Positions 22,659 through 29,028 of a stretch of DNA of 64,000 nt are shown one piece after another. A program made the translations under genes and the position numbers. The notes below the pieces were generated by a model, which saw only the letters and a program-made list of their open reading frames with translations, was not told the DNA's origin and made no database searches. Where the stretch lies: contig CALLMV010000012.1 of NCBI GenBank assembly GCA_938005615.1, forward strand, positions 1-64,000, read 5' to 3'. Each line of letters starts with the position of its first letter. The stretch's first letter is position 1. This DNA comes from an uncultured Verrucomicrobiae bacterium (GTDB lineage Bacteria; Verrucomicrobiota; Verrucomicrobiia; JADLBR01; CALLMV01).

Positions 22659-23006
22659 TTATCTTGGTGCCTGGGCATTTGCGATTTGCTGTTCAGCTTG
22701 GCTGGTGGAAGCCTCCTCATAAGCGCGGACGATCTGGGCTGAGGCAACCTCCTTGAGGGCCAGGCCCATTTCGCGCACTTGTTTTTGCAAGAATTCTGGA
22801 GTTTTGAGGCTGGAGAGGTTAGCCCTGTGAATTTGGATTTCGCGATTGATTTCCAAGATGCGTTTTTCGCGGGCTGCCAGCTCTTCGCTGATTCTCTTGA
22901 TATTTATATTCTGGATGATTAGCAGCAAAAAGAACGTAACGATGATGCAGGCCAACATCACGAGTTTCAGGATCGTCATCAACCGAATGGGAGCGTGGCC
23001 TCTCAT
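22659..23006 (-). CDS. ftsL: FtsL-like divisome protein
   Basis: 115 residues: a short basic N-terminus, one transmembrane helix at about 11-31, then a predicted coiled coil (ISEELAAREKRILEINREI and following heptads) ending in a low-complexity Gln/Ala tail. This bitopic coiled-coil architecture, together with the slot between rsmH and ftsI, is what defines FtsL; sequence similarity in the family is minimal. FtsL forms the FtsQ-FtsL-FtsB complex that activates septal synthesis. It overlaps rsmH by four bases (ATGA). Confidence 0.85.
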   Translation of the reverse strand: MRGHAPIRLMTILKLVMLACIIVTFFLLLIIQNINIKRISEELAAREKRILEINREIQIHRANLSSLKTPEFLQKQVREMGLALKEVASAQIVRAYEEASTSQAEQQIANAQAPR

Positions 23007-23968
23007 TTTGCGAACTCCTCTGCTGGCGACTGGCCCAATGCTTCCGCCACCCGCAGGCGGGCACTGCGTGCGCGGATGTTTGCCGCGATTTCCTTCTCAT
23101 CGGGCTGAATAGCGTGCCTGGTGATGATGCGCAACTTGTACTCAGGGTTGGGTACACTGTTTGGCCACTCTGGCGTGTCCAGCCATGGTCGCGATTTTTC
23201 CGTGAAGAAGTTTTTTACAATACGGTCTTCAATGCTGTGGAAAGAAATGATCGCCACACGTCCCCCAGGCTTGAGCAGCATGGGAACGCGTTCTAAAAAT
23301 CGGCGTAGGCGGCCTAACTCATCGTTTACTTGAACTCGCAGTGCCTGAAATACAAGCGTGGCTGGGTGATGACTGCGACCAGCTCTGGGAAACTTATTTT
23401 CGATCCAAGAGGCAAGCTGCCGAGTGCTGATGAAGGGTATTTTTTGTTGTTGATCAAAGATGCTACGAGCAAGCGCTTTCATCCGAGGAGAATCATCCAT
23501 TTGCAGAAAGCAGCTCATAAGTTCGTGCTGCGTGCTTCGTGCCAAGAACTCCGCTGCCGTAATGCCGCGCGTCGTATCCATACGCATGTCCAAAGGGCCG
23601 TCATGTTGAAAGCTGAATCCGCGAGATGGTTCGTCGAGCTGGTGAGAGGACACGCCCAAATCCAGCAGTATCCCATCAAGCGAGGACGGGTTGAGGTAGG
23701 TTTCATCAAATGCCTCATGACGTAACTCCAGCATTTCCGAAAATTCGGTAAGATGGCTGCGCGCGGCCTCCAGCGCTTGCTTGTCGCGATCTGTAGCAAA
23801 GAGGAAAACTCCTCTCTGCAAAAGCAGGCGAGCATGACCTCCACCGCCGATTGTTCCATCGAAGAAGATCTTGCCAGGTTCGGGGCGAAGCATAGCCACC
23901 ACAGACGAAGCCAGAATGGGTGTGTGGCCGCGCCAAGGGGCAGATTGTGAAGGGCTGTGGCATTTCAC
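23003..23968 (-). CDS. rsmH: 16S rRNA (cytosine-1402-N4)-methyltransferase RsmH (MraW)
   Basis: 321 residues from a GTG at 23968. HTPILASSVV, the SAM loop DGTIGGGGHARLLL, LLDLGVSSHQLDEPSRGFSF, DMRMD and ISFHSIEDRIVKNFF are all family signatures. The frame stays open up to 24112, but the GTG overlaps the stop of a small upstream ORF in a GTGA junction, and the resulting length matches E. coli RsmH (313 aa), so I prefer this start. RsmH methylates C1402 in the ribosomal decoding centre. It is in its usual place, first enzyme gene after mraZ, although two small ORFs intervene here. Confidence 0.93.
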   Translation of the reverse strand: MKCHSPSQSAPWRGHTPILASSVVAMLRPEPGKIFFDGTIGGGGHARLLLQRGVFLFATDRDKQALEAARSHLTEFSEMLELRHEAFDETYLNPSSLDGILLDLGVSSHQLDEPSRGFSFQHDGPLDMRMDTTRGITAAEFLARSTQHELMSCFLQMDDSPRMKALARSIFDQQQKIPFISTRQLASWIENKFPRAGRSHHPATLVFQALRVQVNDELGRLRRFLERVPMLLKPGGRVAIISFHSIEDRIVKNFFTEKSRPWLDTPEWPNSVPNPEYKLRIITRHAIQPDEKEIAANIRARSARLRVAEALGQSPAEEFAK

Positions 23969-24138
23969 TTCTGTCGATTTTTTCGTTTCGCGTGCACAAC
24001 GGCTGGGCGTTTCAGACCGAGGATCTCGTAGGCACCGCGCCGAGCCAGCTCCAACCCCGACCATCCGATCACATGGCCTTGCTCGTCTCGCTGCTGGGAG
24101 AATCCAAAACATAATTTTAACTTTCCATTTTGTCTCAT
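23965..24138 (-). CDS. Small basic protein of 57 aa between mraZ and rsmH
   Basis: The ORF runs from an ATG at 24138 to a TGA at 23965-23967. A textbook ribosome site, GGAGG, ends six bases before the ATG, and the stop overlaps the rsmH GTG as GTGA. The product is basic, with a tail KRKNRQK and a core reading GHVIGWSGLELARRGAYEILGL in pieces around residues 21-42. It has no obvious membrane segment. I do not recognise a family. The ribosome site, coupled junction and protein-like composition argue for a real gene; conservation cannot be checked here. Confidence 0.62.
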   Translation of the reverse strand: MRQNGKLKLCFGFSQQRDEQGHVIGWSGLELARRGAYEILGLKRPAVVHAKRKNRQK

Positions 24139-24191
24139 TTAGTCCTCCATTTGGATTTGTTTATTTCACAATTCCGACAGGAGGACCGCTC

Positions 24192-24371
24192 CTACCTGCC
24201 GGAAATTTTTCCTCCGGTTGATTTTTTCTGCGGTCTTTCGTCAAATTCGCCCGACCACAGGCCAAGTTGTGTTAAGCGGATGAGGATACTTGGCCCTGAT
24301 TGGACACGACTGCTGATGCTGCCAACGCCAGAACTAGTGACCAGGGGGGCTGTTTTTTTAGCGTTTTTCAT
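24192..24371 (-). CDS. Small basic protein of 59 aa following mraZ
   Basis: The ORF starts at an ATG (24371) two bases after the mraZ TGA, with GGAG eight bases upstream inside the mraZ 3' end; a GTG at 24377 forms an alternative GTGA overlap. The product begins MKNAKKTAPLVTSSG and ends in a Lys/Gly/Ser-rich tail; it is soluble and basic. No known family is recognised. Its placement between mraZ and a second small ORF suggests cotranscription with the dcw cluster. It is less convincing than the 57-aa neighbour because the composition is of low complexity. Confidence 0.45.
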   Translation of the reverse strand: MKNAKKTAPLVTSSGVGSISSRVQSGPSILIRLTQLGLWSGEFDERPQKKSTGGKISGR

Positions 24372-24373
24372 GC

Positions 24374-24799
24374 TCACAGCTCCAAGTCCTCAATCGTTGT
24401 TTGTCCGTGTTTCTTGGATTTCCAAGCGCTGGCGTCCCAAATCTGAAAGTGATCAAACGCCCCAGCCAAGATGATTTGTTTTCCGAGGGAGGCATGAGCA
24501 ATCAAGCGGTCGCAAATCTTCATGCGTCCCTGTGCGTCAAAGACCACCTTTTGTGCCTGCGAAAACGCCGACTCGATGATCTTGCGCCGAGAATCATTGA
24601 GCGGTAATCCTGCTAAGGACTCCTGTTTTTTCGACATCCAGGAGGCGGGGTAGGCTCTCAGGCAGCCTTCCCGGGAAGGGAAAAGAAAGACGCGCTGCTC
24701 GTACCCATCGTCTCGCCATTCGGCAGGCACGGAAACACGCGATTTTTCATCCATCACGTGCTCAAAAGTGTCTGCGTAGGTCGCTGGAGGGTTATTCAT
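24374..24799 (-). CDS. mraZ: Transcriptional regulator MraZ
   Basis: 141 residues with two AbrB-like (SpoVT/MraZ) half-domains. The first carries DEKSRVSVPAEWR and the second DAQGRMKICDRL, the usual DxKGRxxxP pattern, slightly divergent in both copies. MraZ binds tandem TGGG/TGGT repeats upstream of its own gene and represses the dcw cluster in characterised bacteria. Four such repeats lie immediately upstream (24822-24861). I chose the ATG at 24799; an in-frame TTG at 24805 would add two residues. It is the first gene of the cluster. Confidence 0.94.
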   Translation of the reverse strand: MNNPPATYADTFEHVMDEKSRVSVPAEWRDDGYEQRVFLFPSREGCLRAYPASWMSKKQESLAGLPLNDSRRKIIESAFSQAQKVVFDAQGRMKICDRLIAHASLGKQIILAGAFDHFQIWDASAWKSKKHGQTTIEDLEL

Positions 24800-24821
24800 T
24801 GTCAAAGTTGCTCTTGCATTA

Positions 24822-26394: not shown

Positions 26395-26775
26395 TCAACC
26401 AGACTGATCCACCGCATGCTCCATCAGTGCCGAAAGCGGGATGACGTCCAGCGCCCTTTCGTGCGTGGATTCAAGGTAAACCGGCGCCGCATACCCTGCA
26501 TCATAAGCCTGCAGCCATCGAGCCGCGCAAACACACCAGCGATCCCCGGGCTTCAAGCCAGGAAAGTGATATTCCGGCCGTGGCGTGACTAAATCATTGC
26601 CCACACTGACAGAGTATTTCAGAAACTCTTCCGTCATCAAGGCACAAACGGTGTGGCTTCCCACATCATCCTCATCCGTATGACAGCAACCATCTCGAAA
26701 GTATCCCGTCATCGGATCGAATGAACAGGCACGCAGCTTCCCTCCAAGCACATTTCTTGCACGTGATGTATTCAT
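26395..26775 (-). CDS. DUF2237 family protein
   Basis: 126 residues, the full length of the family. NVLGGKLRACSFDPMTGYFRDG, CCHTDEDDVGSHTVCA, PRPEYHFPGLKPGDRWCVCA and ERALDVIPLSAL are the family signature regions, with several conserved Cys. The biochemical function is unknown. Conserved Cys and His suggest metal binding, but this is inference. It sits 16 bases downstream of the HtrA-like gene on the same strand and may be cotranscribed with the sigma factor unit. Confidence 0.9.
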   Translation of the reverse strand: MNTSRARNVLGGKLRACSFDPMTGYFRDGCCHTDEDDVGSHTVCALMTEEFLKYSVSVGNDLVTPRPEYHFPGLKPGDRWCVCAARWLQAYDAGYAAPVYLESTHERALDVIPLSALMEHAVDQSG

Positions 26776-26791: not shown

Positions 26792-27973
26792 TCATGGCGC
26801 CGCCTGATAAACAGCTCGACTCAACCCCTGTGCAGGACGTGACTCCACGAATGGAACATCATCAGGTCGCTCCACGATTGTAATGTGAAATACCAACTCC
26901 TGCCCATCACGAAGCACAAGCACAGGCACTTGCGAGCCCACGCGAGTGTGAAAAGCTGCTTCAATCATGTCAAAACGATCATGAATCTCACGGCCATCAA
27001 GCGATACGATTACATCCCCGGGCAAGATACCATATTCCTCCGCAGGGGTGTTGGGATAAATCTTTGTCACTAGCATCAAAGGCCGCCCAGTTTCCAGCGA
27101 CCTGCGCTCCTCCAACTCCACACCGATCCAACCGCGCCGTACGCGGCCGAACTCCTGTAAATCCGCAAGTACGCGCCGCAGTGCAGGCGTCGGTAAAGCA
27201 TACGTTAACCGCCCCTCGGCAGCCGTCCCCGTCACAATGCCCGACACGCTCCCGCGCGTATCCAGCAGCGGGGAACCGATCATCCCGGGAGTCAGTGGGA
27301 TGTTCATCCGCAAATGCGAGGCGCACAGCATACGCCCATCTGGAAGTGCCCGATCCTGCCCACTGGCCAGCGTGAAGAGCGGAGAAGAATCCCCATGAAA
27401 GGGGAAACCTAAAATCACAACAGCCGTCCCAGCTTGAATTGCTACGCCTTGTCTAAATTTCAGATACTTAACGTCTGCTAAAGGAGCCTTCAGCAGAGCA
27501 ACACTGCTCGGCCGATCAATCCCAACCACATGAGCGCTGACTTCCGGCCCGTTGTATTCTACCGCCACCTCTCCGCCTTCGGGCAGCAAGCTGGACGCCG
27601 TGACAATGTGGCCCTGATCGTCAATCAAAAATCCTGTACCGTTGAGAATTCCGATCGGCGTCTGTGCACGCACGCGCACTAAAGCATCTTTTGACAGCTT
27701 GTGTAGGGCCTCAAGCTCCTCGGCAATTTGCTCCATCACATGCGCGCCAGCATAATCTGCCGGCTTTTCAGCGCGCTGCGATCTGCCATCCACAGTCTCC
27801 GAATTCCGTGCATGATTCTCGCTTGCCCCGGAGAGGCTGTTTAATGCTGGATGGAACCATAAACTGCACAGTACACATATTACACACGGCGACTTAGCCA
27901 AACTTAAAAATTTTCCCAAATGACAAGCACCACTTCGCAAAGTGCGCCGCCTAGTAAGTAATGCGCGACTCAT
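26792..27973 (-). CDS. HtrA/DegP-like protein with all catalytic residues lost (pseudoprotease)
   Basis: 393 residues from the ATG at 27973. A hydrophobic secretion signal lies near residues 30-50, followed by a trypsin-like domain (about 105-275) and one PDZ domain (about 280-375, GWIGVELEER to VLVLRDGQELVF). The fold motifs are clear but the triad is gone: the His region usually TNNHV reads TASSL, the Asp region usually SDIALL reads SSVALL, and the Ser region usually GNSGGPL reads GMIGSPL. The protein is therefore predicted inactive, perhaps a periplasmic sensor or chaperone. It is the third gene of an ECF sigma / membrane protein / HtrA-like unit, overlapping the upstream gene by 23 bases. 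The frame is open to 28003 (TTG), and a TTG near 27897 would start just at the signal, so the start is uncertain. Confidence 0.85.
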   Translation of the reverse strand: MSRALLTRRRTLRSGACHLGKFLSLAKSPCVICVLCSLWFHPALNSLSGASENHARNSETVDGRSQRAEKPADYAGAHVMEQIAEELEALHKLSKDALVRVRAQTPIGILNGTGFLIDDQGHIVTASSLLPEGGEVAVEYNGPEVSAHVVGIDRPSSVALLKAPLADVKYLKFRQGVAIQAGTAVVILGFPFHGDSSPLFTLASGQDRALPDGRMLCASHLRMNIPLTPGMIGSPLLDTRGSVSGIVTGTAAEGRLTYALPTPALRRVLADLQEFGRVRRGWIGVELEERRSLETGRPLMLVTKIYPNTPAEEYGILPGDVIVSLDGREIHDRFDMIEAAFHTRVGSQVPVLVLRDGQELVFHITIVERPDDVPFVESRPAQGLSRAVYQAAP

Positions 27974-28382
27974 CGAAAACAACAGGTGTAGCCTCCACGG
28001 CAAAACTTCGAGTTAACGGTGCCGCCACGGGCATCTCAGGAAGTCCTTCTGAGAAGAAATCAAACAGCGGCGTGGATTGCAGCGGCTGCATGATTACCGG
28101 AGACGTGGGTGCGCTCTTGCGCTCTGCAGACACGATCTTCTCGGCCGTTTTATTAATCTGCACCGCACCCAAGAGTATCACGACTACGCTGGCCACTACG
28201 GGGCTCCACCTTACAACCCAAGCAGGTAACAGGAAGACGTCATCACCCGGAGATGCCTTCTGCTTCATGCGCTCGAGGCGAAGGTTGTAGCGGAAGAGTG
28301 TTTCCACTTCCTGGAGCCTCTCGGGTGAGGGCATTTCTAGCCTTTTGAGCGCGAGAAGTTTTTGCAGTTCCTGATCAGTCAT
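27951..28382 (-). CDS. Putative membrane anti-sigma factor
   Basis: 143 residues: a cytoplasmic N-terminal part of about 55 residues rich in Leu, Glu and Arg (LQKLLALKRLEMPSPERLQEV), one transmembrane segment at about 57-76, then a Pro/Ser-rich extracytoplasmic tail. No family motif such as a zinc anti-sigma HxxxCxxC is visible. The call rests on topology and on position: ten bases downstream of an ECF sigma factor gene and overlapping an HtrA-like gene, as in rpoE/rseA or algU/mucA loci. Confidence in the anti-sigma role is moderate; that the gene is real is likely. Confidence 0.7.
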   Translation of the reverse strand: MTDQELQKLLALKRLEMPSPERLQEVETLFRYNLRLERMKQKASPGDDVFLLPAWVVRWSPVVASVVVILLGAVQINKTAEKIVSAERKSAPTSPVIMQPLQSTPLFDFFSEGLPEMPVAAPLTRSFAVEATPVVFDESRITY

Positions 28383-28392
28383 AGCAAATATT

Positions 28393-29028
28393 TCATCCTA
28401 AATTACCTGCTCTGTGGTGGCGACCAAGCTTTTTCTGGAGGATCCTGTGCGCGTGGAACAACCGAGTTTTCACAGTGCCCTCGGGTACGTTGATGATTCT
28501 CGCAATTTCCATATGAGTTTTTCCTTGGATGTCGTGCAACACAACAACCGTCCTATGTTTTTCAGACAGTTCCTGGATTGCCTGGTTCAAAATTAGCTGA
28601 AGCTCCCGCAGTTCCTGCTCACGCTCTTCGGGTTGCTTCTTCGCGTTCCCGCCCGTCGAATCCTCCATCATCAACATCTCTGCGGCGTCCATGTCTAGCT
28701 CATCGAGGCTCAGTTTGCGTGAGCGGTTTCGTGCCTGGCGCAAAAAATTAATCGTCACGTTAAGCGCAATCCGATACACCCAAGTGGAAAACTTCGCATC
28801 CGAACGAAACTTCGGCAGTGCTTTGTAGGCACGCATCAGCGTATCTTGCAACAAATCAGAGGCATCATCGTGGTTCGAAGTCATGTGATAAATCGCGCCG
28901 TAAAGCGACTTCTTGTGTCTGGTAATGAGCTCTTCAAAAGCCGCATCATCCCCAGCCTGAGCGCGTGTGACCAACACCTCATCCGACACGGCGGGCAGAG
29001 GCTCGTCGTTGTTCTCTGGCTTGATCAC
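28393..29028 (-). CDS. ECF-type RNA polymerase sigma factor
   Basis: 211 residues. Region 2 spans about residues 25-100 (DDASDLLQDTLMRAYKAL, FRSDAKFSTWVYRIALN) and region 4 about 145-200 (LSEKHRTVVVLHDIQGKTH, IARIINVPEGTVKTRLFHA). Between them is a polar, Glu/Met-rich linker. This is the two-domain layout of sigma-70 group 4 (RpoE-like) factors that direct extracytoplasmic stress responses. The start is a GTG (29028) without a clear ribosome site. The downstream genes encode a membrane protein and a degenerate HtrA, so control by envelope state is likely. A tandem repeat 40 bases upstream may be its control site. Confidence 0.93.
   Translation of the reverse strand: MIKPENNDEPLPAVSDEVLVTRAQAGDDAAFEELITRHKKSLYGAIYHMTSNHDDASDLLQDTLMRAYKALPKFRSDAKFSTWVYRIALNVTINFLRQARNRSRKLSLDELDMDAAEMLMMEDSTGGNAKKQPEEREQELRELQLILNQAIQELSEKHRTVVVLHDIQGKTHMEIARIINVPEGTVKTRLFHAHRILQKKLGRHHRAGNLG

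Follow-up and report, generated by a model that had tools for sequence, protein, structure and literature searches.

In an uncultured Verrucomicrobiae bacterium, a three-gene cassette combines an ECF sigma factor gene with genes for a single-pass membrane protein identified by homology as an anti-sigma factor and for an HtrA homologue in which the entire catalytic triad has been replaced while the PDZ domain has been kept. In all linked loci, the anti-sigma factor ends in an aromatic residue, a tail that would be of the type read by HtrA PDZ domains. We propose that the operon works as a switch for envelope stress: the catalytically dead HtrA would read the tail of the anti-sigma factor and shield it instead of cutting. 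We give this explanation an even chance of being correct.

RESULTS

An ECF sigma factor operon encodes a degenerate HtrA homologue

The DNA studied is a 64,000-nt stretch of contig CALLMV010000012.1 (GCA_938005615.1), referred to here as the window. A preliminary description had recognized a sigma factor, a membrane protein, and an HtrA-like protein as one unit, and both Pfam matches and gene coordinates confirmed this arrangement, with all three genes on the minus strand. The features are listed below; orthologue counts over 104 refer to the main set, in which 104 orthologous loci represent 32 families of the class.

28393..29028, minus strand: ECF sigma factor gene, 211 aa (Pfam Sigma70_r2, Sigma70_r4_2)
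27951..28382, minus strand: gene for the single-pass anti-sigma factor, 143 aa (assigned from zf-HC2 in orthologues and a structure model)
27951..27962, minus strand: I-T-Y codons and stop at the anti-sigma C terminus, the proposed PDZ ligand (F/Y-ending orthologues, 100/100)
26792..28003, minus strand: gene for the HtrA-like pseudoprotease, 403 aa from the TTG at 28003 (Trypsin_2, PDZ_2)
27152..27682, minus strand: degenerate protease domain, residues 108 to 284 (HtrA fold retained, triad gone)
27590..27592, minus strand: codon for S138, at the catalytic His position (His in 0/104 orthologues)
27503..27505, minus strand: codon for S167, at the catalytic Asp position (Asp in 0/104 orthologues)
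27278..27280, minus strand: codon for I242, at the catalytic Ser position (Ser in 9/104 orthologues)
26870..27148, minus strand: PDZ domain, residues 286 to 378, with the G-W-I-G-V loop at 291 to 295 (PDZ_2 match)

The sigma protein matched Sigma70_r2 (PF04542; 6.3e-19) and Sigma70_r4_2 (PF08281; 7.8e-14) and scored above the cut-off of TIGR02937; the presence of sigma2 and sigma4 regions only places it among ECF sigma factors. The HtrA-like gene shares 53 nt with the anti-sigma gene when read from the TTG at 28003; translation more likely starts at the in-frame ATG at 27973. Directly downstream (26395 to 26775) lies a gene for a DUF2237 protein (Pfam, 5.8e-55). By eye, rsmH-like and mraZ-like open reading frames (ORFs) were recognized near the cassette at window positions 23003 to 24805, and ispD-like and glycogen phosphorylase-like ORFs on its other side. 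The draft genome is small (1.67 Mb), and just two ECF-type sigma genes were found in it. Before the second of these (G000:C9:40153-40353; L300, G000 being the window genome) comes a gene for a small periplasmic protein of Spy/resistor-like type, and after it one for a small membrane protein whose last residues are NEF.

The catalytic triad is replaced and the PDZ domain is retained

The HtrA-like protein (here, pseudo-HtrA) has the trypsin-like domain and C-terminal PDZ domain of the HtrA/DegP/DegS serine proteases, peptidase family S1C (Pfam Trypsin_2, 1.1e-18; PDZ_2, 1.3e-14). As the preliminary description had claimed for the window copy, all three catalytic positions are replaced: S138 stands in place of His (TASSL), S167 in place of Asp (SSVALL), and I242 in place of Ser (GMIGSPL), each aligning with the corresponding triad residue of intact HtrA homologues. 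Among the latter are the other two HtrAs of the same genome, which retain intact motifs (NNHV/TDLA/GNSGGAL and NAHV/SDVA/GNSGGPL) and serve as an internal control. Judging from these replacements, the window protein is very probably catalytically dead. Its AlphaFold2 model had a mean pLDDT of 82, mostly above 90 across both domains, and the structures nearest to the model were DegP, DegS, MucD, and AlgW. It reached neither the DegS nor the Do-family curated cut-off of NCBIfam, scoring far below the thresholds (TIGR02037, 112.9 bits versus 416; TIGR02038, 85 versus 423).

Conservation extends to both domains. In the protease scaffold, G124, F125, and G243 are invariant, and in the PDZ domain, G294 (101/104), D330, and F351 (97/104) are near-invariant, with W292 kept in 90/104 orthologues. 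A G-W-[VIL]-G loop is conserved in the PDZ domain; by its position, the G-W-I-G-V loop of the window copy is likely to be the carboxylate-binding loop. The second PDZ helix carries a family-specific F-[FY] pair that includes F351, at a place where MucD has G-N. From general PDZ geometry, the conserved loop and this pair would line the peptide groove.

The cassette and the triad loss are conserved across the class

Orthologues in the same three-gene order were found in a search of 39 related genomes. When 286 genomes of the class were searched with a pseudo-HtrA profile, the best matches followed a two-peaked distribution: about 130 genomes had an orthologue at E < about 1e-62, while the remainder had mainly matches of about 1e-40 to 1e-57, and those read had intact motifs. 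In the main set, the catalytic His and Asp are retained in no orthologue, and Ser is retained in nine; the idea that the triad is lost in all homologues therefore holds without exception for two of its residues and not for the third. Intact triads in close relatives, which would have pointed to recent decay, were looked for among the orthologues and none was found. Because no orthologue in 104 loci from 32 families has an intact triad, recent decay of the protease was rejected. The replacing residues vary between families and are chemically unrelated, and some lineages have D or E in place of His. Residual or alternative catalysis by other residues, for which these acidic residues and the nine retained serines could be cited, is highly improbable given the unrelated replacements and the absence of His and Asp from every lineage.

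The linkage suggested by the preliminary description was likewise borne out, since the three genes occur together almost everywhere and the sigma gene lies upstream in 100/104 loci. Three of the four loci without a sigma gene (L067, L086, and L125) are at contig ends. The fourth (L261, in genome G135) has neither a sigma nor an anti-sigma gene nearby and is the sole true orphan of the 104 loci. A further named set of 80 loci, largely from Chthoniobacterales/Spartobacteria and partly overlapping the main set, includes a Chthoniobacter flavus MAG and Candidatus Udaeobacter MAGs. Contigs were searched with a profile built from a seven-sequence sub-alignment, a single-protein scan having given nothing and the full alignment being too divergent. 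Catalytic His, Asp, and Ser are all absent from the 80 named loci. The cassette search was confined to the phylum Verrucomicrobiota, and within it the cassette is also carried by a genome from another class (G288). A promoter motif shared across families was sought upstream of the sigma genes and none was found; in the named set, words enriched in this region resembled upstream coding sequence, with no shared promoter.

A dead protease might also be a neutral or decaying gene hitch-hiking in the operon, as the high variability of its catalytic positions could suggest. However, the gene is conserved over 32 families with its reading frame open in most loci, the scaffold and PDZ residues named above are invariant or nearly so, and it has been kept in a 1.67-Mb draft genome with two ECF-type sigma genes found. 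We therefore consider this explanation very unlikely.

Homology identifies the membrane protein as an anti-sigma factor

The membrane protein of the window gave no Pfam match. A zf-HC2 domain (N-terminal HxxxCxxC), the mark of class I zinc-finger anti-sigma factors, was detected in 7/24 orthologues, with a best match of 7.9e-9, above the curated Pfam cut-off. Because some orthologues carry this domain, the middle protein of the cassette is, by homology, an anti-sigma factor, which supports what the preliminary description had presumed. The window copy lacks the zinc finger and keeps the LLALKR-E-P motif that follows it (LLALKRLEMP-type), and its orthologues are highly divergent (13 to 29% identity to the window copy). 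A structure model placed helices at residues 3 to 15, 20 to 42, and 54 to 88, followed by a disordered tail. The hydrophobic membrane segment falls inside the single long helix at 54 to 88, and the gene adjoins the sigma gene (100/104 loci). The model suggests a topology of two cytoplasmic helices in the N-terminal part, one membrane helix, and a periplasmic tail. In family f6 (L052, L055, and L056), two tandem LLALKR-E-P type modules precede the membrane helix.

The anti-sigma factor ends in an invariant aromatic residue

The C-terminal residue of the anti-sigma factor was F (88 loci) or Y (12 loci) in 100/100 linked loci, with the window copy ending in I-T-Y. For 98 of the 100, the tail came from an automatic ORF choice that was blind to the last residue; in L100 and L103, the ORF with the anti-sigma motif was taken instead, and these end in VDF and RRF, respectively. 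Of the 98 tails tallied, 78 have L, V, F, I, or M as the third-last residue, so the usual form is hydrophobic-x-F/Y. Against a background drawn from the same loci rather than from proteome-wide C termini, an F/Y ending was seen in 1/100 sigma proteins and 0/103 pseudo-HtrA proteins. In the named set, 73/74 anti-sigma proteins end in F, the sole exception (L245) being a read-through in which the stop after SYEPSFRF is missing. Overlap between the end of the anti-sigma gene and the start of the HtrA gene was rejected as the cause of tail conservation: the genes do not overlap in L034, L035, and L050, and the tail is kept in all three.

The PDZ domains of AlgW and DegS recognize aromatic residues at position 0 and at position −2, examples being WVF (AlgW) and YQF (DegS) (PMC8545111). 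As a free hydrophobic-x-F/Y-COOH end, the anti-sigma tail would be a ligand of this type. Outer membrane protein (OMP) C termini are similar: in the window genome, BamA terminates in NVGYQF, and its last residue is F or Y in 30/30 relatives read (YQF, TKF, TRF, YAF, REF, and YSY). The preliminary description had interpreted the pseudoprotease as a sensor or shield. Of that interpretation, the anti-sigma identity, the linkage, and the old loss of the triad are supported; the role itself we still infer, and the invariant C-terminal Phe/Tyr, as an HtrA PDZ ligand type, may give it a molecular handle.

Tail and pseudo-HtrA occur together

Genomes without pseudo-HtrA often retain the orthologous sigma/anti-sigma pair. 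Among 26 such loci scored (L164, L167, and L168 were left out of tail scoring), the tail was absent in 20, representing 20 families, and kept in 6. Several of the tail-less anti-sigma factors stop right after the "PVSY"-like stretch that precedes the tail elsewhere. The six tail-keeping loci belong to families f3, f15, and f26, each of which also has cassette-bearing members; since the tail is kept there without an adjacent pseudo-HtrA, another tail reader may exist. The f15 loci (L144, L150, L154, and L156) have anti-sigma ORFs of about 310 to 340 aa with tails SIKF, TLKF, and TVKF and no neighboring pseudo-HtrA, and where read, a fumarase-like gene comes next after the anti-sigma gene.

These loci bear on an alternative in which pseudo-HtrA binds the tails of misfolded OMPs and touches the anti-sigma factor in some other way, the F tail being a degradation signal for the PDZ domain of an RseP-type or S41 peptidase. 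Peptidases of both types are present in the window genome (the RseP-type site-2 protease matches PF02163 at 5e-52, G000:C27), and the alternative accommodates tails retained in f3, f15, and f26. However, wherever pseudo-HtrA is present the tail is there too, whereas 20 families without pseudo-HtrA have no tail, and we regard this alternative as unlikely.

On a sigma-factor tree of 105 rows, the pseudo-HtrA state changes five times and the tail twice. Both tail losses lie within pseudo-HtrA-less lineages, and none occurs where pseudo-HtrA is present. With the tail lost only twice, co-loss rests on few independent events, and an independent-pairs test had too few events for significance. One locus first counted as lacking pseudo-HtrA (L142, G109:C1 near 75956) was reclassified as a more degenerate version: its protease domain is below Pfam detection, its PDZ domain is detected (PDZ_2, 4e-12), and its anti-sigma factor ends in QEF. 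That the PDZ domain has outlasted the protease domain in this genome suggests that the PDZ domain is the working part of pseudo-HtrA.

Co-variation with the tail over all 100 loci gave a partial r of 0.29 for the PDZ domain given the protease domain; at one locus per family, the values were 0.19 for the PDZ domain and 0.30 for the protease domain. Because the protease domain matched or exceeded the PDZ domain here, co-variation was rejected as evidence for PDZ specificity. Convergent PDZ changes in the Y-tailed lineages were also sought, and no clear site emerged. As far as sequence comparison can speak to it, the pairing of tail and PDZ domain has strong circumstantial support.

DISCUSSION

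A proposed envelope-stress switch

In the mechanism we propose, the membrane-spanning anti-sigma factor would keep the ECF sigma factor inactive, as its homology and the zinc finger of some orthologues suggest. The PDZ domain of pseudo-HtrA is predicted to bind the periplasmic hydrophobic-x-F/Y tail of the anti-sigma factor, a step with strong circumstantial support, and the bound pseudo-HtrA would shield the anti-sigma factor from site-1 cleavage, a role like that of RseB toward RseA. Unfolded OMPs, with their similar C termini, would compete for the PDZ domain and so uncover the anti-sigma factor. A separate active protease would then cut it, and candidates are encoded in the window genome (the two intact HtrAs and an S41 peptidase). 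The RseP-type protease, for which a candidate is also present, would cut next and free the sigma factor. Two features of the RseA-type pathway of regulated intramembrane proteolysis are seen here, namely a single-pass anti-sigma factor encoded beside its sigma gene and a site-2 protease elsewhere in the genome; the two-step cleavage under stress would be the third.

The sequence fits either direction of control, shield or activator, and it is the shield form that we infer. The main rival holds that pseudo-HtrA is an activator or adaptor that binds the tail and promotes cleavage, either by delivering the anti-sigma factor to an active HtrA or by forming mixed trimers with one. HtrAs are trimers, and two intact HtrAs are at hand in the window genome. 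There is also a precedent in MamO, an HtrA pseudoprotease that promotes MamE-dependent proteolysis (PMC4794232). On the other side, mixed trimers would be less likely given how far the protease core of pseudo-HtrA has diverged from the intact paralogues, and we judge the activator role rather improbable.

The shield model may extend to a class-wide pathway of Verrucomicrobiota in which the anti-sigma factor has a built-in mimic of an OMP C terminus, this mimic is read by a dedicated HtrA pseudoprotease, and sensing works by competition of two classes of C terminus for one PDZ domain. We advance this extension tentatively, at somewhat less than an even chance. If it is true, sensing would proceed without allosteric activation of a sensor protease, unlike in DegS.

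Comparison with known systems

The type of pathway, with an ECF sigma factor, a membrane anti-sigma factor, and an HtrA protein with a PDZ domain, is already known. The Escherichia coli RpoE/RseA/RseB/DegS system shares with the window cassette an ECF sigma factor, a single-pass anti-sigma factor, and a periplasmic HtrA protein with a PDZ domain, and its signal is the YxF-type motif at OMP C termini (PMC8103513; PMC8545111). The window cassette differs in that its HtrA is apparently dead and encoded within the sigma operon, the anti-sigma factor itself bears the YxF-type tail, and there is no RseB gene. In Pseudomonas aeruginosa (AlgU/MucA-MucB-MucD), the AlgU sigma factor, its anti-sigma factor, and the HtrA protein MucD share one operon, as do their counterparts here. 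MucD and AlgW, although among the nearest structures to pseudo-HtrA, are both active proteases. AlgW reads through its PDZ domain the C-terminal WVF of periplasmic MucE (PMC8545111); the activating tail is therefore on a separate protein, whereas the window tail is on the anti-sigma factor.

The fold of RseB and MucB is unrelated to that of HtrA, whereas the shield proposed here would have the HtrA fold and carry a PDZ domain. The likeness lies in the putative role, RseB being a periplasmic shield of an anti-sigma factor (PMC8103513). MamO of magnetotactic bacteria is likewise an HtrA-family pseudoprotease with a noncatalytic role (PMC4794232). However, MamO serves magnetosome biomineralisation and metal binding with no sigma linkage and keeps His116 and Asp149 with Thr in place of Ser, whereas pseudo-HtrA is sigma-linked and has lost both His and Asp. 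A search of the open-access literature, with subscription papers outside its scope, found no prior description of a dead HtrA in a sigma/anti-sigma cassette, and a comparable envelope-stress pathway in Verrucomicrobiota was not found in the open-access literature searched. What appears to be new is the combination of a dead HtrA with an anti-sigma factor that has an OMP-like tail.

The standard example of a PDZ domain that reads misfolded OMPs to activate a protease is RpoE/DegS. In the cassette, this reading module has seemingly been kept across a bacterial class with the protease activity lost and the ligand motif placed on the anti-sigma factor. The cassette suggests protease-free sensing of envelope damage and offers a case in which a pseudoprotease could be tested as a signaling receptor, and its three-residue tail would provide a specific, easily mutated handle on envelope-stress control in Verrucomicrobiota.
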